Assembly: GCA_954871525.1 (NCBI GenBank)
Contig: OX940860.1
Location: forward strand, 24,894,001 to 24,958,000
Direction: 5' to 3'
DNA from: Parietaria judaica
Lineage: Eukaryota > Streptophyta > Magnoliopsida > Rosales > Urticaceae
DNA length: 64,000 nucleotides
Below, in pieces: positions 2,589 through 50,455 of the stretch (position 1 is its first letter; each line of letters opens with the position of its first letter). The position numbers and the translations under genes are program-made. The notes under the pieces were generated by a model. It was not told the origin of the DNA. It was given only the letters and a program-made list of their open reading frames with translations, and did not search any database.

Positions 2589-3623
2589 ATGGAGCCGTTT
2601 CAATGGGTTCGAGGAGAAGAGATCGGTCATGGAAGCTTTGCCTCCGTCAGCAAAGCCCAGGTCATGGCGGCACGATTCGCCGACCTTCCGACGTCGATTA
2701 TGGCGGTGAAGACCTGTGAAGCTGCGCTTTCGGATTCGCTCAGAGAAGAGAAGAGAATCCTTGATGCCGTCGGGTTTTCTCCGCAGATCGTGCGCTGCTT
2801 CGGAGATTGCTCCACCGTCGAGATGGGCCAGAGCTTGTACAACATCCTCTTGGAGTTCGCTCCCGGAGGCTCTCTCGCCGACGAGATCCAGCGCCGGCGC
2901 GGCTTGGGCCTGGCCGAGTCGGACGTTCGTAGGTACGCGAGAGCCGTCCTCGAAGGGCTCTCGGTGATCCACGCCAAGGGCTTCGTCCACTGCGACATCA
3001 AGCCTCACAACATTCTGATATTCGGCGGAGGAGAGGCGAAGATCGCCGACTTTGGTTTGGCAAAGGAGAAGGAGGCGAAGGTAGCGAGGTGTCAGGTTAG
3101 AGGCACTCCGCTTTACATGGCGCCGGAGTCTGTGAATGCCAACCAGTACGAGGCCCCGTGCGACATCTGGGCTTTGGGCTGCATGGTGTCGGAGATGGCC
3201 TCCGGAAAGCCGGCGTGGCCCGACGAGGCGAAGATCGCAAACATGTTCGCTCTCCTGATGCGCATCGGCGACAGCGACGACATTCCAAATATTCCAGAGG
3301 GCATGTCGGAAGACGGGAGAGACTTTCTCCGAAAGTGCTTCGTGAAGGACCCGGAGGCGCGGTGGACCGCTCAGATGCTTCTCAGCCACCCCTTCATCGC
3401 GCATTTCGAGCCAGACAACAACGACGAAGCTCGCACTGCTCTCACGTTCCCAGCCACGAAAGCAGTTAGGGCTTCACCGAGAAGCCATTTTTGCTTCGAG
3501 GATTCGACATCGGCTAATTCAGAGTCCCCGGCCAATCGCATAAAACAGTTGGTGTCGGCTTCGAGAGATCGAGACGGCGGCGGCTGTTGGGACTTCTCCA
3601 GCAGTTGGCTGACAGTTTTGTAG
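2589..3623 (+). CDS. Intronless MAPKKK17/18-type serine/threonine kinase, copy 2
   Basis: A 344-aa single-exon kinase, close paralogue of copy 1 upstream and of the disrupted copy near 40 kb. The start is ATG 2589, which gives the same opening (MEPFQWVRGEE) as the other copies. Its glycine loop is the better conserved one (GHGSFASV). Other motifs: VKTC lysine segment, HCDIKPHN catalytic loop, DFGLAKEKE, GTPLYMAPE. The Ser/Asp-rich C-terminal tail of about 70 residues is longer than in copy 1 and is where members of this group usually differ. By family knowledge it would phosphorylate MAP kinase kinases in ABA/stress signalling. A long TA microsatellite sits directly upstream. Of the three copies in the window this is the most likely to be fully functional. 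Confidence 0.92.
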   Translation: MEPFQWVRGEEIGHGSFASVSKAQVMAARFADLPTSIMAVKTCEAALSDSLREEKRILDAVGFSPQIVRCFGDCSTVEMGQSLYNILLEFAPGGSLADEIQRRRGLGLAESDVRRYARAVLEGLSVIHAKGFVHCDIKPHNILIFGGGEAKIADFGLAKEKEAKVARCQVRGTPLYMAPESVNANQYEAPCDIWALGCMVSEMASGKPAWPDEAKIANMFALLMRIGDSDDIPNIPEGMSEDGRDFLRKCFVKDPEARWTAQMLLSHPFIAHFEPDNNDEARTALTFPATKAVRASPRSHFCFEDSTSANSESPANRIKQLVSASRDRDGGGCWDFSSSWLTVL

Positions 3624-5727: not shown

Positions 5728-6028
5728 GATTATATTTTTGTGGCCCTCACTTTGTATATTATCTATATATATTTTATATTGTTTTTCGTAGATGGTTTAT
5801 GTATGTATTTTTCGTCTGAGCTGAGCTGAGCTGAAAAACAAAACTAATCTTATTAATGTTATTGCTGTCTTTATCGAGGTTGGAGGTACCGTTACCAAGG
5901 AAATACCGATAGTCTAATTTTACGGGGTATGTCGAGCGACAATAAAGTTTTTGTTGAATATTTTATGAAAGGATTCACCAGCAAAGCTTTTACTGATCAG
6001 ATTTTACCGGTAAAATGATTAACAGATA
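5728..6028. other. Intergenic: putative promoter of the CRR42-like gene
   Basis: Upstream of the minus-strand CRR42-like gene, ending at the target duplication of the Mutator-like MITE. AT-rich, with a GAGCTGAGCTGAGCTG triplication near 5818-5833. No coding signal seen. Confidence 0.45.
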
Positions 6029-6515
6029 TTTATATTAGGGTTAATGACGGCAAAAATATCCAAAGTTTGGTCAAAGAACCCTTCGTGTACCCAAAGTTTA
6101 AAAGTGGAGACAAAAATACCCAAAGTCGCATTTGGGGAGTTGACCACTTCATTCTCGTAACGCCGTTAACTTACCCGTTAACTCTGGCCACGTGGACAAA
6201 TGTGGGTTGCTGACATAATAATTTTTGCCACGTGAACAAGCCCACATCAGCCTCGTTTACGACAAAACAAGGAATTAAACCCCTAATTAATACTATTTAA
6301 CACAACTAATTGAACCCCTAATGATTACACTTAACAAAACAGATTTGTCCACGTGGCCAAAATTAACAGGTAAGTTAACGGCGTTACGAGAACGGAGTGG
6401 TCAACTCCCCAAATGTGACTTTGGGTATTTTTGCCACCACTTTTAAACTTTGGGTACACGAGGGGTTCTTTGACCAAACTTTGGATATTTTTGCCGTCAT
6501 TAACCCTTTATATTA
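6029..6515. mobile_element. 469-bp Mutator-like MITE (foldback), copy 1
   Basis: The element runs from 6038 to 6506 and starts GGGTTAATGACGGCAAAAAT; the end is its reverse complement. The two arms of roughly 200 bp are inverted copies of each other and contain phrases such as CCCAAAGT and TTAACGGCGTTACGAGAA. It is flanked by a perfect 9-bp direct repeat TTTATATTA (6029-6037 and 6507-6515). Long inverted repeats with a 9-bp target duplication are the marks of Mutator-like elements. It has no transposase, so it is non-autonomous. A copy of exactly the same length is at 23914-24382. Confidence 0.9.
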
Positions 6516-20445: not shown

Positions 20446-21457
20446 AATATTTTAGGGTAAATTGCGGCTATGTACCCAATGTTTAGTTGGCTGCGGATTA
20501 CGTACCCAGTATTTATTTTCGACGGCTAATGTACGCAAACTTAATTCTATTAGATTTTTTTGTGTTTTCCGTCACTTGAACGTCAGTGAGTGATTCCTCC
20601 TCTATATATACACTTTTTCGTATTTTTGGCATAACTCACTCATTTTTTGTCCAAATTTCATGAATAAGCTACCGTTCGAAAGCTAAGAGATAGATCTACA
20701 ACTTAAGTATTTTAAGTTTTGTAAAAAACGTTTTAAAGAATACGAAATGTCAATTACAACGTAAAACTGGACATTAGTTTAATGCAAAATATTTTTTTCG
20801 AGCAAATTTTAATATACTTATTGACTTTCTATGATGAAACATAAAACTGAATAGTTGTAGATAAATCTATTATCTTTCTAACGGTAGTTTATTTATAAAT
20901 TTTGGACAAAAAATGAGTGAGTTATGCCAAAAATATGAAAGGTGTGATGTGAAAAAATCTTTCGTATTTTTTGCATAACTTACACATTTTTTGTCCAAAA
21001 TTTATAAATAAACTACCATTGGATAGATAAAAGATTTATCTACAATATTTTAGCTTTACATTTTATCAAAAAAAGTCATTAAGTATATTAAAATTTGCTC
21101 GAAACAAATATTTTGCATTACACTAACGTCCAGTTTTACGTTGTAATTGAAATTTCGTATTTTTAAAACTTTTTTTTTTACAAAACTTAAAACACCAAAG
21201 TTGTATATATATCTCTTAGCTTTCCAACGGTAGTTTATTTATGAAATTTGGACAAAAAATGAGTGAGTTATGCCAAAAATATAAAAATTGTACATATAAA
21301 TGAGGAATCACTTGCTGACGGTCAAGTGACGGAAAACACGAAAAAAATCTAACGGAATTAAGTTTGGGTACATTAGCCGTTGAAAATAAACATTTGGTAC
21401 ATAATTCACAGTTGATCAAACATTGGGTACATTAGCCGCAGTTTACCCAATATTTTA
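20446..21457. mobile_element. 994-bp foldback element with 9-bp target duplication
   Basis: The element (20455-21448) starts GGGTAAATTGCGGCTA and ends with its imperfect reverse complement TAGCCGCAGTTTACCC. Almost the whole element folds on itself, with arms of nearly 500 bp. Both arms carry GGACAAAAAATGAGTGAG-type sequence, CGTAAAACTGGAC and CCGTCACTTGA (or complements). A perfect 9-bp duplication AATATTTTA flanks it (20446-20454, 21449-21457). The duplication length and long inverted repeats point to a non-autonomous Mutator-like element. No transposase is encoded. Confidence 0.88.
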
Positions 21458-23241: not shown

Positions 23242-25528
23242 ATGGCTACGCTCTCTCGCTACTCTCTTCAAACTCTCCCCTCTTCTTCTTCTTCTTCTTC
23301 TTCTTCTTCATCATCGAGCTATTTCTCTCACATCGCAATCCACTCTCTCCCACCAAAACCAGAGACTCCATTAACGTCCTCGCTTTCTCGCTTCTCGCCA
23401 TCGCCGCTGAACCCGATCGCTCTCAGACCGAGGCAAACGACGACGAGGTTCTGCGTCCACAACTCGCTCTTTCTTCTCAGCGCTTCCATTGACACGCAGA
23501 CCTTCCTCGCCACGATCAGCGTCCTCGCCTCCATTGCGCTCTCTCTCTTCCTCGGTCTCAAGGGAGATCCAGTGCCTTGCGAACGCTGTGCTGGGAATGG
23601 TTAGTGCTTGCAATTCCCTCTTTCTTTCCTGATAGCGGCAAAAGTACCATTGATTGTTTTTTTTATGCTTGACGAGTGTCCATCCGCTGACGTCTAATGA
23701 CGGAAGGATGGGGTTGGAATTTGATGACTCTTTAGACATTAGCTACTTTAGCCGCTAATAATTGGAGTATGTGGTGAAGGATTATCTCTGGAATTTAATG
23801 ATTAAATAATTTGTGATTTGGTGGAAAACTAAGATAAATTCCAACATGCTGTTACACTTAGAAAGAGATTTGGTACTTTTGTCGTTAATATTTCACTAAC
23901 GTAATTTAATTTTGGGTTAATGACGGCAAAAATACCCAAAGTTTGATCAAAGAACTCCTCGTGTACCAAAAGTTTAAAAGTGGTGGTAAAAATACCCAAA
24001 GTCGCATTTGGGGAGTTGACCAGTCCATTCTCATAACGCCGTTAACTTACCCGTTAACTATGGCCACGCGAACAAACGTGGGTTGCTGACATAACAATTT
24101 TTGCCACATCGATGAGCCCAAAGCAGTCTCGTTTATGATAAAACAACGAATTAAACCCCTAATAAACACTATTTAATACAACTAATTGAACCTCTAATGA
24201 TTACACTTAACAAAACAAATTTGTCCACGTGGCCAGAGTTAACCGGTAAGTTAACGGCGTTACGGGAATGGAGTGGTCAACTCCCTAAATGCGACTTTGG
24301 GTATCTTTGCCACCACTTTTAAACTTTGGGTACACGAGAGGTTCTTTGACCAAGCTTTTGATATTTTTGCCGTCATTAACCCTTTAATTTTAACTACATA
24401 TGTATAATATAGTTCAGATGTTAAAAAATGGAACGCAAAACAACAATGAAGTAAAGATAAAAGTAACGAGAAATCGACACAAAAATTCACGTCGGAGTTA
24501 ATTGCGATTTCGACATAAAAGTAACAAGAACTCTAGGTACGGACCCAAAATAATTTCAGACGGAGTCAAGTATTGCGAGGGGGGTGATTAACCAAAACAA
24601 ATTCTAAAAAAATAAGATAAAAATAAATAAATAAATTTTGAGGGGGACAATAGTTGCCTTCGATTACCTCCTAAAACGCTTATTACAAAAAGCCTTATCC
24701 GCAAGGTTCCCAATGTAGAGCTAAGTATCTCCTAAAATTTAGGTCGCACCGCAAAATTTTTAAAAAGGCCAGTGCCAAAAACAACTAATTGGACTTAAAA
24801 TCACGCATTTAGTTTGAAAAATGTCGTTTCTAAACGGGGAAAAGAGTACAATACTAATTTATTTTCTGCTCGGCAGGCGGGACGAAATGTGTATTTTGTG
24901 ACGGCGGTAAGATGAAGAAAGAGACGGGATTGGTCGACTGTAAGGTCTGCAAAGGTGCAGGTATGAGCTAGCTTCTTAACCCTGCATTTTTATTTTACAT
25001 TTTTTCAAAAATAGAACATTTCTCTTGTTGTTATAATAAAAAACTCGCAGCATCTTTTTATAGTCGTTTAGGAAGCAATGTTCCGGTTTTTTAGCATGCT
25101 AGACCAGGGGCGGTTATGGGCACATTTTTTAATTTTAACCGAATTATTCGGTTTAGCGGATAATTGTAATCGGTTTCCGTCTTTAATCTGCTTATCACTT
25201 AACTTGTCAATTCGATTAATTTATATTTGGTTATTATTAGGGGGGATTTTATAATAGGTATGGAAATTCAGTTTAACCAGTTTTAATATCGGTTAAAACT
25301 TAAAGCAAATAAAACAGGTAAAATTGGATAATATATATTTTTACAACATATTTGTTAGGGAACAATGTAATCTTGTCAAGAAGGCAAAGTTTAATAGTTA
25401 CTTGTACCCGTGAAGTCTAAAGTTCCAGCCTCGTTATGTATCAAACCGTTTTTTACTGTTCCAATGTTTTTTTAGGGTTGGTCTTTTGCAAGAAATGTGC
25501 AGGCTCCGGATATTCGAGGCGATTATGA
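23242..25528 (+). CDS. Plastid-type DnaJ cysteine-rich zinc-finger protein (three exons)
   Basis: Exons 23242-23599, 24877-24960 and 25476-25528 give 164 aa. I choose ATG 23242 (MATLSRYS). The N-terminus is a long Ser/Thr/Pro-rich stretch with a poly-Ser run from a TCT/TTC microsatellite; it looks like a chloroplast transit peptide. A hydrophobic segment ([18 protein letters not shown]) follows, then a DnaJ-type cysteine-rich region split over the exons: [31 protein letters not shown]. The protein ends shortly after, at SRRL. There is no J domain. Plant proteins of this architecture (BSD2/PSA2/ORANGE relatives) act as plastid chaperone or thiol-exchange factors; which one this is cannot be decided here. 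Intron 1 (1.28 kb) contains a 469-bp Mutator-like MITE. Confidence 0.82.
23905..24391. mobile_element. 469-bp Mutator-like MITE (foldback), copy 2
   Basis: Runs from 23914 to 24382, the same length and terminal sequence as the copy at 6038-6506, and differs at scattered positions. A perfect 9-bp direct repeat TTTAATTTT flanks it (23905-23913, 24383-24391). Both copies chose T/A-rich targets beginning TTTA. It sits inside intron 1 of the DnaJ-type gene and must be spliced out with it. Confidence 0.9.
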
Positions 25529-36700: not shown

Positions 36701-38884
36701 GTATTTATAGGCCATTCAAAACCGAGCCGAAATCGACACACTCGCAAAGAAGTTGGAGCTTTGTCTCGAAGAAAAGGAGAGATTCGAAAGGTAACTCTTT
36801 AAGTCCTTCGATTCTAATTATTTGGTAACAACACGATATTCCAAGAAACCTGCACTTCGGTATAAATTTTACAGAAAACCTGCAAGTAATCCCATAAACA
36901 CCCGCCAATTCTAATTTAAAATAGTCTAATTAAATCTATTAAATTTATTAAAAACGTCAAAGCTCTATATATTCCATTAAATTCATTCATTAATAATTAA
37001 TTTTAAATACTATTATTTTCCCTATCGTTTATCTGTGTACTTATGAAATATGATGGGCATACACAATTAGTTTTGTTTTTTAAGATGGTAATAAGTTTTT
37101 GGGCTCTTATCTTAAACCGTTGTTTGAAATACATTGGGTTAATGTTTTACAGGAATGTTAACGATTTGGCTTCGAAGCTAGCGGAGGAGAGATCTAACAG
37201 AGCCGGGAATGAAGAAACTAGTCAGCCGAGTGACCAAACAGAGCTTAAAGCCATGGTTGACGCCATTGCTGCAGCGAGCCAAAGAGAAGCCGAAGCTCAC
37301 GAGACAGCCATCGTGCTGGCCAAAGAGAACGATGAACTTCGCATGAAGCTTAAGGTTTTGATCGACGATAACAGCAAACTCATCGAACTCTACGAAGTCG
37401 CTTCCGCAGAATGCAGCAAGCAAGCCGTTGATGAACGCAAGATCTCCGAAGGTCGAGAAAAAGAGACGGAGAAAGAAGTCGTTGACTTGCGGCAACAGCT
37501 AGTGGAAATGCACGAAGAGAATGAGAAACTCATGGAGTTGTACGAACGAGCAATGCGGGAGAGGGATGAGTTTAATCGTACGCTTTCTTCCGTCGACCAA
37601 CGTGCCGAGAAAGTTGCTGAAGTTGACGGAGATTCTTCTCGATTTGATTCGCTTCAGGAAGAGCCAGCTCGCAATTTTGACAAGAAATCTACTGGATTCG
37701 AAGAAGAGAACGGTTCGATTGAAGATATTGACATGTGCACGGAAGAGATGAGTGAAATAGAGCCTTCAATTCCGGTTACAGCGAAGATACCCGAGGAGAT
37801 TAGTATGGCTCGGATGAAACTGGAAAGAGCGGACACCCATCTTGAAGATTCTGCAACAGCAATGATTCGGTTCGGTTCGCTCGAGAAATTAGTTATGGAG
37901 ATAAGCAAGTTGTCGAGAGAAATTAATTCCATGGAGGATGCGATTCGGGCGAAACAGAATCTTCATGAATCACTCAGACTCGATTCCTCCGAAATTCAAG
38001 AACGGAAAGCTCTGATTCAGAAGAAAATGTCGGCTCTAAAGTACTCGTTATGGAGTTTCTCTACATCGGTTTCCTACTTTGAGCAACGTGAAGCCCGAGC
38101 ACGCACACGGGCAAGCATGTCAGCGTCGTTTTTTGCTCAAAAGAAAAAAGAGTTAGCGGATTTACAGGTTAAGAAAGACGAAATCGAGGCTTGTTTAAGA
38201 AAGTCTAAACAGTTGGAATCCGAGTTGATTAGCAGCCTCTCTTGCTTATCCTCAAAGCTTGACGAGGAAAACAGGAAGCATGAGGACGAAAAGGTTCTTT
38301 TCGCCATAGACAACATTGAAAAAACCGACCCGTCACAGAAAAACTTGAATCTGAGAGGCCGAGCCACCGAGCTCCTAAAATCAGAAGAAGAGAAAACCAA
38401 AATTCAAGCTGAGATCAAGCACGCCCAAAAAAGACTCGGCGTGACTAGGAAGGAGCTCGAAGACCAAACAAGGAGGTTATCAAAAGTCAGCGCTGCAATC
38501 GTAACAGTTGACTTGGAAACCAAGAAAGCGTCCAAATCCGCGGAAGAAACCGAGCTAGCCCTTCAGAACGTGCTCCAAGAGAAAAACACACTTTTGGAAT
38601 TACGAGAAAGTGGCAACGCAGATATCGAAAACATGATTGTCGAATACCACCAACACGTGTTCGATTCCGACTTGAAGGAGGCCGAGATGAAAGAGTTGGA
38701 GGGAGAAATCGAAGAACTGAGAAAAGCTATGGCCGAGGCTATTGAGAAGTCAACCGAGCTGTTGAGTGTCAGTTCGGAGCATTCGTGTTTTTTGACGTCA
38801 GAAAAGATGGAAGAAGAGCTGGGAAGTGTGAGGGCTTATGTCTTGGAGGCCAAGCAATTGCTGGAGGGAAGTTTGAAGTGCTGA
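30705..38884 (+). CDS. Kinesin-12 family motor (KIN-12E/F-like, 22 exons)
   Basis: Exons: 30705-30962, 31292-31447, 31626-31709, 31799-31918, 32138-32251, 32366-32458, 32585-32674, 32784-32854, 32939-33013, 33106-33193, 33404-33462, 33647-33710, 33867-33932, 34151-34309, 34388-34492, 35002-35237, 35755-35824, 35913-35963, 36050-36112, 36567-36626, 36711-36790, 37153-38884. They total 3894 nt (1297 aa), all in frame. A short N-terminal extension (MPFISDTASAIKSRFGFHD, typical of the plant KIN-12E/F branch) precedes the motor: P-loop GQTGSGKTHTM, switch I NRASSRSH, switch II LVDLAGSE. The rest is long coiled coil, most of it in the 1.7-kb last exon. Kinesin-12 motors act at plus ends of spindle and phragmoplast microtubules in cell division. 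Intron 16 begins GC instead of GT (AGAAG/GCAAGG). Intron 19 holds LTR-like sequence. Confidence 0.93.
36164..36500. other. Possible LTR remnant in KIN-12 intron 19
   Basis: GC-richer than other KIN-12 introns. It starts near TGTTAGGCC, has a C6/G6 self-complementary phrase (CCCCCCGAGGGGGG, 36261-36274), then TTCAATAAAATTATCGGGAG and TTCGGTGAATTTTTGTTGG. The order resembles the U3-R-U5 part of a plant LTR and partly matches the zinc-knuckle intron near 17030. No target duplication was found. Confidence 0.3.
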
Positions 38885-39441: not shown

Positions 39442-40224
39442 TTAACGTGAAATATCAAAACAATATCCAAACAAAAAACTACAGAAACCGAGGAACCGCG
39501 GAGCACCACCGGCTCCGTCGTCGACAAAGGGGTGGCCTAGAAGCATCCGAACGGTCCACCGCTTCTTCGGGTCCTTCACGAAGCACTTGCTCAGGAAGTC
39601 TCTCCCGTTTTCCGACATGCCACGCGGAATAGCCGGGACGTACTCGGCCATTGCAATGCGACTCAAGATCACAAACTTCTCGTCACTAGTCGCCTGCTCA
39701 AACTCCGTCTCGCCGCTGACCATCTCCGCCACCATGCAGCCTAAGGCCCAGACGTCGCATGGCGGCTCGCACTCCTTCCCCTTCAACGCTTCCGGCGCCA
39801 TGTATAGCGGAGTGCCTCTGATCCCCGACCCCGTCTTATTCTCCTTCGCTGCCCCAAAGTCGGCGATCTTCGCCTCTCCGTCGTCGTACATCAGGATGTT
39901 CTGAGGCTTGATGTCGCAGTGGACGAAGCCCTTCGTGTGGATCGCCAAGAGTCCTTCCAGGACGGCTCTCGCGTGCCTCCGAACGTCCAACTCGGGCAGC
40001 CCCGAGCCGCGTTGAAGCCTGATTTCGTCAGCGAGAGTGCCTCCGGGAGCGAACTCCAAGAGGATGTTGTAGAGGCTTTTGCCGTTCTCGACGGTGATGC
40101 AGTCTCCGAAGCAGCGGACGATCCGTGGACAAGCTCCAACGGAGTCGAGGATTCTCTTCTCTCCTCGCAACGAGTCGGAAACAGAAACTTCGCAGGATTT
40201 GACGGCCATCAGTAGAGGTGAAAC

Positions 40225-40771: not shown

Positions 40772-43700
40772 ATGTCTCGAAGAAGCGGCGGTAGTTCCGG
40801 GGGTCGAAGGGCGGCCAGGAATTTGCAACCCCAATTTCTACAAGGGGGAACATCGCAGCCTTGTCCCGACAACTACATTCCCGTTATGCTTCCGTCAGAA
40901 ATATTCCCTTCCCCTCCCAATCCAAATTATCCCGACGATACAGTACGGTCTCTAAGACCTAGTCTAGTCCGGGCGTTGGCCCACCACCAAGCCAATCCCG
41001 ATCGTGTGTCCCGAGAATTGGTCGAAGCGGTGGCTCAATCTAGGGGGGAAATAACGATCCTTTTTTCGATCTCATGTTTCGGGAAGGTGCCGATTACAGA
41101 GCTCAAGGTCCCGAAGGTGCCGATCCAGACGAAACTCAACGCCCCGAAGATGCCGATCCTGACGAAACTCAACGTCCCCACGATGCCGATCCCGACGAAA
41201 CTCAACTCCCCCACGAGGCCGATCCCGACGACTTTCAAACGCCGCCCTCGGTCCATGGTTCAAATGTTGGGGTTTACAACCGCGGTTCTTCCAATCAAGA
41301 TAGCGGTGAAGCCTCCGTTGCTCGTCCTCGACGTGCTCGACGTCCTTCAACCGGGTAATAACCTTTATTCATTTGTTTATTTCATTAATTATTAATATTT
41401 ATTAATTAATAAGTTAGTACTTAGTAATAATTAATAATTAATATATATTAATCCGTTTTTAATTATTAATAATTATTCAATAATAATCACTTGAAAGTCT
41501 TAGTATGCTCTGTAGTTGCGGTTCCGACTGATCTTCCACATCAGAAACAATTTTCTTGAGATTTAATAATCATTTAATCATATTATCTTAATTATTTAAT
41601 TTCGTTTAATTTTTTAACCTTAAATATTATAGTTTAATTATTTTAGTTTAATTAATTAATTTGTCACGTCTCTTGAAAGTCTTAGTATGCTCTGTGGTTG
41701 CGGTTCCGAGTGATCTTCCACATCAGAAATGATTTTCTTGAGATTTAATAAGTTAACGGGATTAAAAATGGTAATTTGTATGTGTGGTGATTATTATAAA
41801 GTTCTTAATGGAATACGGTGTCTTAGAAAGATTGGTTTTTAAATAAGGTTTGCTTTGCAATCTCCTCCAAGCTAGCCTGGGAACCTCGGGGAGTTCTGTC
41901 TAGAAAAGCTTGGGCCTAAAGCGAGATCATAGCATCCTTTCCAGTCGATCTGGCCGTGGAACCTCGGGGAGTTCCGTCAAAAAGAGCTTGATAATGATTT
42001 CCACACATAGAAAATACCATTTTTAATTTCGTTAACTCTTTTAATTAACTATATGAAATTTAATTTAATTAATATGATTAATGTTAAGATCTAATAAATG
42101 TAATATTTTTTGTAATACTTAATTTATTATTAATCCGATGTAATATTCCTTTGTTTTAACAGCGCAACTCCTTCGGCCCTGGCGTGGGGACGACCAAACA
42201 CGGCCCCAGTGTAGGAATTTTTCCACGAAGATCGGCGGTTGGAGAATGGCGAACGCATCAAACTCGCCACGTGCAAAAAATGCGGCAAAGTACTAGACGC
42301 GATGGGTGACCTCGGAACCGGATACTTGAAAAGACACGCAAGAGCATGCTTCCCGACCGGGCAGCTCGAAGAGGTAAACACAGCACAGGTAAGTGCCCTT
42401 TCTGCAGTTAATTTACGGAAATAGACCCTCGAATGGATAATTTCTACGGGCGTGCCGCTGAGTTTTGTCGAAAATCCCAACCATACCCGATATATGCAAA
42501 GGATTAATCCGACGTACCAGCAGTTTTCCCGTACAACTTATACCCAAGACATGGAAACCGCATATGCTATGCAAAAAAACCTTTTGGTCGATTTTTTTAA
42601 AATGTCTAGCATAAACGTCGCTTTTACCACCGACCTGTGGAGCGGTCCAAGTTTAAACGACTATATGAGTCTGACCGCCCATTACGTAGACGACGAGTGG
42701 AATCCATGTCAAAGGCTTTTAAACCTATCGCCATTCGAGGGTCGTCATACCGGGCAAAACATTGCTGAAAAATTAATTGCATTATTTAATGATTGGGGTT
42801 TACAAAACCGGGTAATTTCCATTACCTTAGACAATGCCGCAAACAACAACGCCGCGATTTTAATCTTGGAATCTAGTTTGCCCGGTTCGCCATTTAAAAA
42901 TATTTTACATCAACGTTGTGCTTGTCACATAATAAATTTAATTGCACGAACCGGCGAACATCAAATTGCTAACCATCTTGATAAAATACGCGGCATTGTT
43001 GATTGGATCCAGCATCCTCAAACCACCGGTAGGTGGAGAAAGTTTTGTAAAGACCACAATCACCGCGCTAACAAGTTTGGTTTAGATAATAATACACGTT
43101 GGAACTCTACATATTTAATGGTTTCAGTTGTTTGTAGACAGCGGGTGCCGTTAGACCACTTCCTCGGGATGGAACTCGAGCCACAGAACCGGATCACGGA
43201 GGCGGATTGGGAAACGGCCCAAAAATTTACCCAATTTCTTAAACCATTTTACGCTATTACGCTAAATTTTTCAAACCAAAAAAGGCCCTCTTTAAACCAC
43301 GGTCTTTCGGGTCTTTACCAAATTACGTGTGCTTTCAAAGAATTTGAAAATGACCCTATTATTTCTCCCATTATTCCGGGGATGATTACAAAATACCAAA
43401 CTTACTGGGATCCACCCCCGTTTTTGTTTTGCTTCGGTGCTATACTTGATCCCCGTTTTTCGTTTACTTGGGGGGCAATGATGTTAGCCTGCGGGGAAAA
43501 CATCGGGGTGGATTACCAGAATTATATTAACGTTGTTAACGAAGCCTTTTTTGCATTGTACAGTGAATACGACGCCCGGTTCCCACAGTTCAACGCACAG
43601 GAAGAGCAAAGGACAGTGATGGAGAGCCCAACGAAGACGGGACTAGCGTTTAGCCGGAGACTCAGGCAACGGATAGATCGCGGGGAAGCAGGGGAATCCA

Positions 43701-44062
43701 GCACGGGACCGCCACGGGCGGACATACCGGAGGGCGCACCGGCAGAAGTTAAGCGATACTACGGCCTACGGTTCGAGGACGATTCAGGCGAGTTCGATGT
43801 CATAAAGTGGTGGAAGAATCAACGGGACAGATTCCCGATATTGGCGAGAATGGCGAGGGATATACTGTCCATCCCCATTTCAAGCGTTGCTTCGGAGAGC
43901 GCATTCAGTACGGCTCAGTACGTCATAAACGACCGGAGGGCGTCAACCACCAACACACACGTCGAGCAAATAGTGGTGTTGAATGATTTGTTGTACCACA
44001 ACCCGGTGATTGCCGAACGGTCCGACCAAACCGAACTGGAGCTAATGACTGAAAGGTTTTAA
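40772..44062 (+). pseudogene. hAT transposase gene (BED finger + RNase H-like + dimerisation domain), damaged
   Basis: Three exon blocks are visible. Exon 1 (about 40772-41356) opens MSRRSGGSSGGRR and later has an acidic repeat of the DPDETQRP type; its two halves are in different frames, shifting at a G run near 41042-41047. Exon 2 (about 42163-42421) encodes a BED zinc finger (CKKCGKVL ... YLKRHARAC), but a TAG at 42212-42214 falls where the family has Trp, and another TAG lies at 42422-42424. Exon 3 (from about 42425 to 44062) is a long open frame with TTDLWSG, LDNAANN, the insertion domain, and the C-terminal hAT dimerisation region (WWKNQRDRFP, SIPISSVASESAFS). Between exons 2 and 3 a strong donor CAG/GTAAGT at about 42390 has no acceptor at a workable distance, so sequence seems to be missing. 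This copy probably makes no full transposase. Confidence 0.85.
41490..41750. repeat. Duplicated 79-bp block in the hAT intron
   Basis: A block starting CTTGAAAGTCTTAGTATGCT occurs at about 41490-41568 and 41672-41750 with few differences. A second pair, GGAACCTCGGGGAGTT, follows at about 41879 and 41957. These lie in the intron between transposase exon 1 and the BED exon. Confidence 0.75.
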
Positions 44063-44682: not shown

Positions 44683-44817
44683 CGCGCCAGATGCAGCTCT
44701 AGCCATCAGTGTGGGAAGGTGGATGCCCAGTGCGTCCACGACGGTGGCTTTGCTGACGGAAGCAGAGCGTCCATGGGAGATGGCTTCTCCACGAACCCAT
44801 TCAAAGTCCTTCATCAT

Positions 44818-45125: not shown

Positions 45126-45130
45126 AAACT

Positions 45131-45336
45131 TTTTAGAAAATGAACGAGAGCTTGGAAGAAGAAGAAGAATTTTCTCATTAATTTTTTTTTGATGCAGAGA
45201 ACAATTTAATACTTATAGAATACTAGCGTGATTGCTGGCGTGATTACCGGCGTAATTACAAAAAGGAGGCATAGGGTTGCCTACTCACTACACAAACAAC
45301 GTACAAAAAATAAATGTAAAAGTCTGGTGCTTAATA
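45131..45336 (-). repeat. 3' LTR of the copia element
   Basis: 206 bp, identical by eye to 49990-50195. It lies at the low-coordinate side because the element is on the minus strand. Confidence 0.95.
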
Positions 45337-45348
45337 CTCCCCCTCAAG
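45337..45348 (-). other. Polypurine tract of the copia element
   Basis: On the element strand it reads CTTGAGGGGGAG directly before the 3' LTR. It is the primer site for plus-strand DNA synthesis. Confidence 0.85.
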
Positions 45349-48300
45349 ATGGAGAGTATATGTCGATTACTCCCATCTTGCGTAAAAGATGATGAAACTG
45401 AGACGGATACAACGCCTTAGTCAACAGATCGGCAAGTTGGTTGTCGGAAGAGACATGAAAGGTTTTGATAATGCCAGATTGAATCTTTTCTCGGATGAGA
45501 TGACAATCTATCTCAATGTGTTTCGTCCGCTCGTGATAAACCGGATTAGCAGCGATGTGAAGGGCAGCTTGATTGTCGCAATATAATAGCGCAGGTGTAC
45601 GATGAGAAATTCGAAGATCTTGGAGAAGAGCAATGAGCCAAGTTATTTCACAACTAGTATTTGCCATACATCGATACTCGGCCTCTGCCGAAGAGCGTGA
45701 AACGGTGTGTTGCTTCTTGGATTTCCAAGAAATAAGAGAAGAGCCAAGAAAGATGCAAAAACCCGAAATAGACCGACGAGAATCTGGACATTGGGCCCAG
45801 TCAGAATCTGCGAATGCCTTGAGCTGTAACGTTGACTTGGAAGAAAAAAATAACCCTTGTCCTGGTGTTCGTTTTACGTATTGTAGAATACGAAAAACGG
45901 CCTGAAGATGAGGAGTGCGAGGGGCTGCAAGAAACTGACTTAGACGGTTCACGACATAGCTAAGGTCTGGTCGTGTGATCGTGAGATACAACAACTTACC
46001 GATCAAACGACGATAGCTAGTTGGATCAGCCAATAAATCCCCTTCAGATTGAGAAAGTTTAAGGTTAGGGACCATGGGTATATTCGCTGGCTTGCATCCC
46101 AAGTAACCCGAATCAGAAAGGAGTTCAAGTGAATATTTTCTTTGGCTAACATAAATCCCAATGGAAGATCGAGCAATTTCAAGACCCAAGAAGTACCGAA
46201 GAGAACCAAGGTCTTTAAGTTTGAAGTGCCGGTGGAGAGAAACTTTGAGAGCATCGACTGACGGAGTGTCATTGCTAGCAATGATTATATCATCAACATA
46301 CACCAATAGAATAAGAAAAGAGGTGCCAGTGGTCTTGGTAAATAGTGAATGATCACAAGTAGACTGAGAAAAGCCTTCAGAAATTAAAACAGAGGAGAAT
46401 TTGTGGAACCATTGTCGTGAAGCCTGTTTTAATCCATAGATTGATTTGTGTAAGCGGCAAACAGTATTGGGAGGAAGGTCAAAAAGTTGCTCCCCCTTGC
46501 CGAGAGAGTATCCTGGTGGTAATTTCATGTAAACTTCTTCGTCAAGGTCACCGTGCAAGAAAGCATTGGTGACGTCAAGTTGACTAAGGGACCATCCTTT
46601 CACCGCAGCAATAGACAAAAGAGTCTTAACAGTAACAAGCTTGGCAACAGGAGAAAATGTGTCTAGAAAATCTATGCCCTCTTGTTGCGTGTAACCTTTT
46701 GCAACGAGACGGGCCTTATAGCGATCGACGGTACCATCGGCTTTGAATTTGGTCTTGTATACCCATTTGCAACCAACAGATTGCTTTCCAACTGGTAGAG
46801 GACAAAGCGACCAAGTCCGATTTGATTCCAAAGCTTGTAACTCAAGGGCCATGGCCTCTCTCCAAATCTCACTTTTTAGGGCAGTGGTGAAATTTGAAGG
46901 CTCAGGATGGGAGCTAATAGACAAGGTGAAAGCACGGTAAGGTGGGGATAGTTTAGTGTAACTGAGAAAAGATGAGATAGGATATGTGGCAGGGGTTGAT
47001 GAGAGGGTAGGACTTTTAGAACTTGTAAGAGAGCAATGGTACTCAGATAAGTAAGAAGGGCGTTTAGTGGTTCGAGTAGGACGGATATTTGGAGGGCAGA
47101 CATCTGGTGGAGTTTGAATGGAGGGAGTATGGGAATCATGGGGTGTAATTGGTGTAGGCTCAGGAAGAGGAAGGGAATTATGTGGTAAAACACGATCATC
47201 GAATAAGGAAGTCGATAGAGATGAAGATGGATAGTGAGCAAAAGGAAAAAATGGTCTCATGGAAAATGACATTGCGACTAATGTAAACACGGCGACTTTC
47301 AATATCAAGAAGTTTATAACCCTTTACTCCAGGAGGATATCCAAGAAAAACAGATGCCCGGGCCCGAGGAGAGAATTTGTGACGTTGACTAACTAGTGTG
47401 GAACCATAACATAGACAACCAAAAGCACGAAGATGAGCGTACGACGGTTTCGTTTTGCAGAGAAGTTCAAATGGAGTTTTCTGAGAAAGAAGTGGGGATG
47501 GGGTTCGGTTAATAAGATAAACTGACGTGAGTACACAATCACCCCAATAACAAAGAGGAAGATGTGATTGGAAGTAAAGGGCTCGTGCAACGTTAAGCAG
47601 GTGTTGGTGTTTACGCTCAACAACGGAGTTTTGTTCTGGTTGCTCAACACACGAGTGATTAGAAATAATTCCTTTGCTGTTGAAAAAATCAGTGAATGCC
47701 AATTCAGGAGCGTTATCAGATCGGACCGATTTAATTTTTTCTTTAAATTGTGTTGAAATCAAAGAAAAAAATTGTGGAAACAAGGACAGAACGTCTGATT
47801 TGGCTTTCAAGAGATAGACCCAAGTTGCACGGGTGCAATCATCAACAATCGTAAGGAAATATTTGTGACCTTGTGGTGTAGCAACATGAAAAGGTCCCCA
47901 TGTATCAATGTGGATGAGATCAAAAGGGGCAGCAGACATATTATTATTAGAAAGAAAAGGGAGACGTCGTTGTTTAGATAGATGACAAATTTCGCAATGT
48001 GAATCTAAAACAGAAGTAGAGCGAGGAATTTGTAATTCATTGCGTAATATACGTAGTTTTACATGAGACGGGTGTCCAAGGCGACAATGCCAAATGTCTG
48101 ATTTAGAAACTGAAAAACTAGAAACAGAAATTGAATTACATAAGCTTTCTGTGGTTTCTAAAATGTAAAGGTTGTTCTCTTGTCTACCCCTCCCAATCGT
48201 CGAGCCCCGAGTAAGGTCCTGAATGACACAGAAATCCATGAAAAAGTCAACATGACAAGGAATAGTTCGAGTGAGCTCGCGAATACTTAAGAGGTTGAAT

Positions 48301-49605
48301 GAGAATGAAGGTACATGAAGGACATTATACAAAATGATACGTGAGGTTAAATGGACAGAACCAATATGAGTGACATAAGCATAATGCCCATCGGGGAGGC
48401 TCACTACAGTATTGGAAACAGGTTTGGATTCAAAAAAATTTTTTCAGATCTGAGCATATATGGTGTGTTGCACCGGAATCAAGAATCCAACCCATGACAT
48501 TTCTAGGAGGGTTACTAAGAGAAAATGAGGATATATTACCGTCCAAAACAGTAGGATTGACATCATTAAGAGTTGTCTCTGTCTGTGGTGGCTGGTTCTG
48601 GAGCTGGGAGCTGAGGTGAGCAATGAGTTGTTGAACCTGATCCGTCGAAAGAGAATTCAATGGCGGTGCAGTAGACGCACCCCTTGCACCGGTGGCTGAT
48701 GTAGATGGAAAAGAGTTCACCATATTTGAAGAAGCCACAAAACGAGTTGGCGGTGCTGCTGGCGCCTTTGGTTTCACCTTGTAACCCGGAGGGAAACCGT
48801 GCAACTTGAAGCATTTGTCAGCGACATGGCCAGAGATGCCACAATGAGAGCAAATTGGTCGCTTAAAGCGAGAGAACTGAGCAGCAAGAGCCGTCGGAAT
48901 AGGTGGAGCAACGACGTGGAAGGCAGTCGAAGCCGGTGAAGGACCAAGGACACTTGTGCCGAGACCTCGTTGTCTCTCTTCTTGAACGACAAGGCTAAAG
49001 ATCTTAGCAACAGATGGTAATGGTTCCATCATAAGGATTTGCCCACGGATGTTGGAGTAAGAATCGTTCAATCCCATTAGAAATTGCATTACAGATTCCT
49101 GATCTTGGTATTCAGTCCAAGATTTCATACCCCCACAAGAGCAAACAGGGGCGGGTTGGTAATTTTTCAATTCATCCCATAATATCTTCAGTTTGGTGTA
49201 ATATGGATTAACATCCATGTCTCCTTGAGATAGATGAAGCAACTGTTGTTTGATTTGGAAAATTCGAGGAGCATTGCTCTGTCGAAAACGAGCATGTAGA
49301 TCTTCCCAAACAGCCCGAGCAGAATCATTGTAAAGAAGAGAGTCTGCAATGTCTTTAGAGACGGAGTTAAGAAGCCAGGAAGTTACCATGCTGTTACAAC
49401 GAGACCAATCGCCGGCGCAGGCATCATCGGGAGATGGGATCTGAATGGAGCCATCAACGAGTCCGATTTTGTTCTTCGCATTCAACGCCATGAGAATGGA
49501 ACGACTCCAGGTGTTGTAGTTCGGTCCAGTGAGCTGGTGGGAGACGAGGATCATGCCGGGATGATCTGCACTGTGCAAGTAGTAGGGGTTGGAGGTAGAA
49601 TCCAT
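45344..49605 (-). pseudogene. copia gag-pol reading frame with two homopolymer frameshifts
   Basis: gag starts at ATG 49605 and carries the zinc knuckle CSHCGISGHVADKC; the protease motif WILDSGATHHIC follows in the same frame, which ends at 48430. Integrase is in a second frame (48404-47196): an HHCC region with HCRLGHPSH and CHLSKQ, then IDTWGPF, RSDNAPE and VVERKHQ for the DDE core. Reverse transcriptase and RNase H are in a third frame (about 47308-45344): AFLHGDL, YVDDII, then [11 protein letters not shown] and SSAEAEY. The frame changes at a T run (element strand) near 48437-48443 and again at a T run near 47249-47255. All catalytic motifs are otherwise present. Two shifts, both in homopolymers, in an element with identical LTRs are either very recent mutations or consensus errors. 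Confidence 0.9.
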
Positions 49606-49661
49606 CTTTGAAGGGGTCGGGGGATGTAGAGGAGAGAAAAAAAAAAAAAATTAGGGTTTGT

Positions 49662-49912
49662 TACTGTTTGCCGCTTACACAAATCAATCTATGGATTAAA
49701 ACAGGCTTCACGACAATGGTTCCACAAATTCTCCTCTGTTTTAATTTCTGAAGGCTTTTCTCAGTCTACTTGTGATCATTCACTATTTACCAAGACCACT
49801 GGCACCTCTCCTCCTCATCTTCAGGCCGTTTTTCGTATTCTACAATACGTAAAACGAACACCAGGACAAGGGTTATTTTTTTCTTCCAAGTCAACGTTAC
49901 AGCTCAAGGCAT
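49662..49912 (+). repeat. Inverted, internally deleted copy of the element's own pol in its 5' leader
   Basis: 49662-49809 is the exact reverse complement of 46319-46466 (148 bp), and 49811-49912 is the exact reverse complement of 45814-45915 (102 bp). Both sources are in the reverse transcriptase/RNase H part. The roughly 400 bp that separate them in pol are missing, with a CTC-type microhomology at the joint. In the element's RNA this leader is therefore antisense to its own pol. Confidence 0.93.
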
Positions 49913-49977
49913 AAGAGATGAATGAGGAGAAAAGGAAATAGAGGCCAAGAAAAATCAGAAAGCAAATGGAGATATAT

Positions 49978-49989
49978 GCTCTGATACCA
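49978..49989 (-). other. Primer-binding site (initiator tRNA-Met) of the copia element
   Basis: On the element strand TGGTATCAGAGC follows directly after the 5' LTR, the standard copia primer site complementary to the 3' end of initiator tRNA-Met. Confidence 0.92.
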
Positions 49990-50195
49990 TTTTAGAAAAT
50001 GAACGAGAGCTTGGAAGAAGAAGAAGAATTTTCTCATTAATTTTTTTTTGATGCAGAGAACAATTTAATACTTATAGAATACTAGCGTGATTGCTGGCGT
50101 GATTACCGGCGTAATTACAAAAAGGAGGCATAGGGTTGCCTACTCACTACACAAACAACGTACAAAAAATAAATGTAAAAGTCTGGTGCTTAATA
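49990..50195 (-). repeat. 5' LTR of the copia element
   Basis: 206 bp, identical by eye to 45131-45336. It would hold the element's promoter. Confidence 0.95.
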
Positions 50196-50455
50196 AAACT
50201 CGAGGTTATTCATGCAGAAAGTTGGTAATAAAATATTACCAAAATTATATATTTAAGATCATTAAAGTAGTTCGATTGGAATTAGAAAAAGTTCCTCAAT
50301 TTAGTTTATATATCTAAATATAAAATATGATATCAATTATCAAGTTATCAAGTATTAAATCATATCAATATCATAATATTTTCTCTATTAAAAGATATAT
50401 AGGCATTATTTAATTCTAATAATGATATCTTCAAATAATTAACATTATTATCACC

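Follow-up and report, generated by a model that had tools for sequence, protein, structure and literature searches.

The leader of a Copia LTR retrotransposon in the 64,000-nucleotide stretch of Parietaria judaica DNA analysed here (the window) contains an inverted copy of two parts of the element's own pol, and this self-copy is real and exact. The leader between the LTR and the start of gag is 384 nt long, and 251 nt of it (49912-49662, in the sense direction) are antisense to pol. We put at about even the chances that the insert is an inverted, internally deleted copy of pol produced by a template switch during reverse transcription, in an element whose transcript is predicted to fold into a duplex of about 250 bp. 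Coordinates of all features are given in Table 1.

Table 1. Positions in the window of the Copia element, its parts and the blocks of its leader insert.
Feature	Position	Strand	Basis or remark
Whole Copia LTR retrotransposon, 5,065 bp	45131..50195	-	Identical terminal repeats, domain order, 5-bp flanking duplication
Target-site duplication AGTTT, 5' side (sense direction)	50196..50200	-	Sequence read
5' LTR, 206 bp; termini TATTAA...CTAAAA	49990..50195	-	206/206 identical to 45131-45336
Primer-binding site TGGTATCAGAGC, adjoins 5' LTR	49978..49989	-	Sequence read
Leader part L1, 77 nt, 75% pyrimidine, no complete ATG	49913..49989	-	
Leader insert, 251 bp, 41% pyrimidine, antisense to pol	49662..49912	-	
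Block A of insert, reverse complement of 45814-45915	49811..49912	-	102/102
Extra G between blocks, matches neither source	49810	-	Base-by-base walk
Block B of insert, reverse complement of 46319-46466	49662..49809	-	148/148
Leader part L2, 56 nt, 75% pyrimidine, includes T14	49606..49661	-	
gag and start of protease (DSGA), 391 aa	48430..49605	-	Stop beside T7 run 48432-48438
Integrase ORF, 402 aa, frame differs from gag	47196..48404	-	
Reverse transcriptase-RNase H ORF, 654 aa	45344..47308	-	Frame change from integrase apparently at T6 run 47246-47251
Source and pairing partner of block B, inside RVT_2	46319..46466	-	
Pol stretch skipped between source blocks, 403 bp	45916..46318	-	No GT...AG ends, either strand
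Source and pairing partner of block A, downstream of RVT_2	45814..45915	-	
Polypurine tract GAGGGGGAG, directly before 3' LTR	45337..45345	-	Sequence read
3' LTR, 206 bp	45131..45336	-	Window self-BLAST
Target-site duplication AGTTT, 3' side (sense direction)	45126..45130	-	Sequence read

The element and its surroundings

Three successive open reading frames displayed the Pfam domains Retrotran_gag_3, gag_pre-integrs, rve and RVT_2, in the order gag, integrase, reverse transcriptase that defines Ty1/Copia elements. Two further Ty1/Copia features were present: a pair of LTRs (identical at 206/206 positions) with a short target-site duplication, AGTTT, on both sides, and a primer-binding site and a polypurine tract adjoining the LTRs. 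A first-pass annotation had called this a Copia element, as the Pfam domains in Copia order and the LTRs confirm. Several assignments are our own readings. We take the primer-binding site to match the initiator methionine tRNA, the purine run next to the 3' LTR to be the polypurine tract by its role, and DSGA in the gag reading frame to be the protease motif. The RNase H part of the 654-aa frame is presumptive and was named without a Pfam match, and the layout is presumably that of the Ale/Retrofit lineage within Copia.

The element departs from the standard plan in two respects. Both LTRs have TA...AA at their termini instead of the usual TG...CA, which is not obligatory. The 5-bp target-site duplication suggests that integration nonetheless succeeded with these altered termini. 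In addition, the gag-pol frame is broken twice, once on either side of integrase (towards gag-protease and towards reverse transcriptase), so that the single open frame of an autonomous Copia element is lacking. Both breaks apparently fall at homopolymers (the T7 and T6 runs of Table 1) and may therefore be slips of reverse transcriptase or sequencing errors.

The window contains several other repeats and genes. An open reading frame at 37043-38884 was most like KIN-12E-type kinesins, and the organism-named matches among the 89 listed were flowering plants. A hAT transposase frame (42452-44062), with dimerisation and RNase-H-like domains, lies about 1.1 kb from the Copia element. A palindrome of about 1 kb (20446-21454) has arms that are 86% alike and inner inverted and direct repeats of about 70-72%. 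A 483-bp element is present twice (6028-6510 and 23904-24386, 90% alike); with its inner inverted arms of about 165 bp, it looks like a small inverted-repeat transposon. Finally, three dispersed frames with a protein-kinase-like reading (500-1435, 2589-3623 and 39442-40209) are 74-77% alike in DNA, and a 114-bp piece related to them (44702-44815) is found near the Copia element.

The proteins closest to those of the element reached at most 70% listed identity among the best 120 of at least 7551 matches at E <= 1e-50 (7940 candidates scored), and none of them was this element. Among the same best 120, the best named relatives were from plants, save one phytoplasma-named entry (P0058) that looks like plant contamination. 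No relative in viral contigs was confirmed in two scans.

The leader insert

The inverted matches were found by self-BLAST of the window, and their limits were set by a base-by-base walk. The block B source corresponds to residues 281-330 of the reverse transcriptase reading frame, within RVT_2 (163-413), and the block A source to residues 465-499, downstream of that domain and, as we read the frame, towards RNase H. The two sources are colinear with the insert, in the same order and polarity, and span a single 653-bp stretch of pol. Exact inverted matches of the leader to the internal region reached 148 nt, against at most 13 nt in 20/20 mononucleotide shuffles of the leader; a chance match is thus ruled out. 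Besides the LTRs and the two blocks, no other 16-mer was repeated in the element, either directly or inverted.

These results uphold most of what the first-pass annotation had said of the insert. Its coordinates and the exactness of the inverted blocks were correct, and the pol sequence that it described as removed between them, about 400 bp, measures 403 bp. Of the copied sequence that it attributed to the reverse-transcriptase region, only the 148-bp block lies inside RVT_2, the 102-bp block lying downstream of that domain. The short microhomology that it had placed at the middle join was wrong: the matches end at 49811 and start at 49809, on either side of the extra G. This base lies within the 8-mer GAGGAGAG, which also occurs at 47366 and 49629 of the element; the G may have been templated by a very short third patch, or it may be untemplated. 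The outer joins share 0-1 base, assuming that L1 and L2 were once contiguous.

Three candidate causes were considered and set aside. The outer joins are not flanked by any target-site-like repeat longer than 3 bp, and the idea that a mobile piece had inserted into the leader was rejected on this ground. Nor was the 403-bp gap attributed to splicing of an antisense RNA, as no GT...AG is present at the exact skip, whose ends read TGCGAG...AAGAAA on the plus strand and TTTCTT...CTCGCA on the minus strand (shifted joins were checked by eye only). Structure was likewise not found to be a reason for the skip: folded as single-stranded DNA, the sequence had a z-score of 0.56, and 73/100 shuffles were at least as stable.

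The insert differs in composition from the leader around it, the pyrimidine fraction being 0.75, 0.41 and 0.75 across L1, insert and L2. Because both flanks are 75% pyrimidine versus 41% for the insert, we infer that an ancestral leader of about 133 nt was split by the insert. The insert also contributes three upstream ATGs (49912, 49818 and 49779). L1 and L2 contain none, and three were already present upstream of gag, in the LTR and its junction. An upstream open reading frame of 46 codons (50037-49897) starts in the LTR and ends within the insert, in register with the gag start codon.

Origin and age of the insert

According to the template-switch reading, minus-strand cDNA that had reached the leader (49661) would have left the genomic RNA at its growing end. 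This end would then have copied minus-strand pol cDNA, either its own or that of a second packaged RNA, from 46466 to 46319. After skipping 403 nt and adding one extra base, it would have resumed copying from 45915 to 45814, and the strand would then have returned to the leader RNA at 49913 and finished at the primer-binding site. Integration of this cDNA would have produced the identical LTRs and the AGTTT duplication, although these two features do not by themselves place the insert before integration.

Several observations favor such a sequence of events. Exact blocks in the same order and polarity are what is expected of one polymerase working on one antisense template with one forward skip. 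The joins, with no usable homology and one extra base, were also counted for template switching. For HIV-1 reverse transcriptase, both the addition of a nucleotide independently of the template and switching on a single matching base are described (PMC12115494). In the plant Copia element Onsen, only 5/32 new insertions are given as having a single parent, switching being frequent (PMC5668417). Abnormal switching has moreover been argued for complex elements with identical LTRs and 5-bp duplications (PMC1950507). In the present element, the interruption of a leader that appears otherwise uniformly pyrimidine-rich counts for the template-switch reading, and the identity of LTRs and arms would fit a recent replication cycle.

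Several points count against it. The return to the leader, without homology and only a few bases from the departure point, is left unexplained by template switching, and it would cost nothing if the chromosome had been broken there, because a break would explain it. The 403-bp skip, for its part, has no structural mark. Also counted against it is that a check of word stems in the texts of PMC1950507, PMC5668417, PMC12115494 and PMC3187697 found no report of an inversion of this kind.

The insert might instead be filler DNA, acquired when a double-strand break in the leader was mended either after integration or just before it, an origin that we hold to be possible though rather unlikely. Copying would then have run from 45814 to 45915 at the left end and from 46466 to 46319 at the right end, and the extended ends would have been joined with one added base while 403 bp of template still lay between them. 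The convergence of the blocks is exactly that expected of two ends extended on a single template, the sole extra base sits at the expected joining point of these ends, and the outer joins lie at one leader position without a target-site-like repeat longer than 3 bp. Repair thus accounts for the convergence and for the return to the leader equally well or better than template switching does. Filler DNA at plant breaks is reported to be copied from elsewhere by the template-switching polymerase theta, in the form of short templated patches from near or distant DNA with few or no shared bases (PMC8395108). In that work the patches resemble ours, but here both come from the same element and are convergent, and the break itself is hypothetical. 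As in filler DNA, the leader holds templated patches joined across 0-1 shared base or an added one, a pattern equally compatible with template switching. On the other side, repair would have to have taken place within the short time that the identity of the LTRs and of the arms leaves for it, no more than about 0.5-1 Myr in either case at the plant substitution rates given below, and the microhomology at the outer joins is at most one base, a figure that itself presumes contiguous L1 and L2.

Reverse transcription is preferred because switching occurs in every replication cycle, while repair must strike within a short time after integration. This preference is a judgement of rates, with template switching at about an even chance and repair an appreciable but lesser one. 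The template-switching origin proposed in the first reading of this sequence is thus supported as one of two near-equal options, break repair fitting almost as well. The origin is probably ordinary, the layout unusual.

The time available was estimated from substitution rates of 1.3e-8 and 7e-9 per site and year for plants. The 95% upper bound comes to about 0.56-1.04 Myr for the LTRs (0 differences at 206 sites) and to about 0.46-0.86 Myr for the arms (0 differences at 250 sites). The matching LTRs had been taken earlier to make the event young. Both bounds do lie below about 1 Myr at these rates, but LTR identity dates the integration only, and it is the 250/250 identity of the arms that bounds the age of the insert.

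Alternatively, the insert could be heritable in a subfamily whose carriers are packaged and moved in trans, thereby spreading a leader with antisense pol that makes dsRNA. Mobilisation in trans is invoked because the frame is broken in this copy, and it is conceivable, as gag and the primer-binding and polypurine sites look present; LTR and arm identity would also allow copying after the insert arose. We nevertheless regard this as improbable. Self-BLAST revealed no second copy within the window, and none was detected in the two viral-contig scans or in 17 Copia-like loci from prokaryote genome records, neither of which is a plant collection. Moreover, a perfect duplex of 250 bp should hinder reverse transcription. 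Finally, an assembly or library artefact, in which a chimeric read placed antisense pol in the leader, is the least probable origin: both frame changes apparently lie at homopolymers and are possible long-read errors, so that the assembly may contain errors here, but three precise joins would be required inside one element with both flanks in register, and the usual fold-back read differs from a 251-bp two-block sequence.

The 17 loci were also used as a control for internal inverted repeats. An inverted repeat of at least 40 bp was absent in 15/17 of them, which speaks against such repeats as a common Copia feature, although the control is weak, the loci belonging to other lineages and being mostly distantly similar and partly fragments. 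Of the two exceptions, L011 had one inverted repeat (64 bp, 80%) and L015 had six, at least four of them at 68-78% identity among the rows listed. The loci were not usable as a source of homologous sibling leaders, gag being matched in 3/17 at 23-26% identity. The Copia reverse-transcriptase relatives L001, L014, L015, L017 and L012, L013, L016 were found in Trichormus- and Frankia-labelled records; these loci are likely host-plant or other eukaryote DNA in prokaryote assemblies.

Predicted pairing and relation to known silencing systems

Co-folding of the leader with a 701-nt piece of pol gave -335.5 kcal/mol beyond the separate folds, and the two expected registers accounted for 255/264 intermolecular pairs. 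For ten control pieces of the element, the values were -7.6 to -21.1 kcal/mol. Alone, the leader had an unremarkable structure (z -1.36; 10/100 shuffles equalled or exceeded its stability). The arms are separated by a loop of 3,195 nt. A transcript of the LTR unit would form a nested stem, in which block A is the outer part, block B is the inner part and the skipped 403 nt bulge out on the pol side. Were the element transcribed, its RNA would thus be predicted to fold back into a duplex of about 250 bp; that such a duplex is possible had been claimed from the sequence at the outset, and the exact blocks and the co-fold bear it out. No RNA family at gathering score was found in the window, and no tRNA by ARAGORN.

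A silencing trigger of the hairpin type is structurally possible on the basis of this predicted fold. Dicer-like enzymes would cut the stem, and the stem would lower gag translation or reverse transcription of this copy. Any silencing consequence would possibly be a by-product, not an evolved function. A bolder model is a retrotransposon with its own RNA-interference trigger: a template switch would have put antisense pol in the leader, each full-length transcript would be a long hairpin RNA, and the copy, moved by sibling proteins, would spread a self-limiting signal silencing its family wherever it is transcribed. We consider this model a long shot.

The comparison with Mu killer of maize (Slotkin et al. 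2003, 2005, via PMC2725412 and PMC11624286), suggested by the first-pass annotation, holds in principle only. Mu killer as described there and the present element are both rearranged transposon copies, and the transcript of either could fold into a long hairpin homologous to its own family. Mu killer, however, goes back to a DNA transposon, MuDR, and its genetic action is in trans (PMC2725412, PMC11624286), whereas the present element is of the LTR type, with arms 3.2 kb apart and a hairpin that is predicted. Of the three features defining the Mu killer type, one is seen in the element, an inverted duplication within one potential transcript, the extent of which is assumed from the usual LTR unit. 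The other two, cutting of the hairpin transcript into small RNAs and heritable silencing of family members in trans, would be predictions for it. With two of the three features at the level of prediction, and with its derivation from a different element class, it is not a member of that locus type but a rearranged young copy. Any action that it may have would resemble that of Mu killer or of a hairpin transgene.

The nearest published parallel found is an antisense nested insertion of EVD/ATCOPIA93 in an rdr6 line (PMC11624286). There, too, a Copia locus has inverted self-homology, which was proposed as a possible start of transcriptional silencing; in the account given, its action as a trigger is proposed and not demonstrated. 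In the EVD case a second EVD had inserted, and LTRs 2562 and 1942 bp apart pair, whereas here pol pairs with the leader of one and the same element. Self-silencing hairpin RNA transgenes, in which the repeat and the promoter next to it are reported to be methylated (PMC9263138), share with the element a perfect inverted repeat in one transcript. These transgenes are designed, in contrast to the element, which is natural and has a 3.2-kb loop and a 403-nt bulge. Complex LTR elements attributed to template switching (Sabot and Schulman 2007, PMC1950507) resemble it in their identical LTRs, their 5-bp duplication and an interior best explained by abnormal switching, and the argument there is made partly on Copia (Angela-like) elements as well. 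They differ in that two elements are fused in sense, while here a short piece of the same element lies antisense in the leader. A literature search covering titles and abstract openings, subscription journals aside, turned up no LTR element whose leader holds an inverted copy of pol.

How silencing starts for a newly active LTR retrotransposon is an open question. Hairpin-forming rearrangements have been sought as the trigger in an Arabidopsis Copia burst, in an analysis that its authors called inconclusive (PMC11624286). A young natural copy with 250 nt of perfect self-complement in one transcript makes hairpin-initiated silencing directly testable. If small RNAs came from the two blocks alone and spared the intervening 403 bp, they could be traced to this single locus, and this two-block pattern is a built-in control that few repeat loci offer. 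If no such small RNAs are made, the case still documents, for reverse transcriptase or for break repair, a type of mutation that combines inverted self-copying with a forward skip, and it serves as a warning that such copies can resemble evolved antisense regulators.
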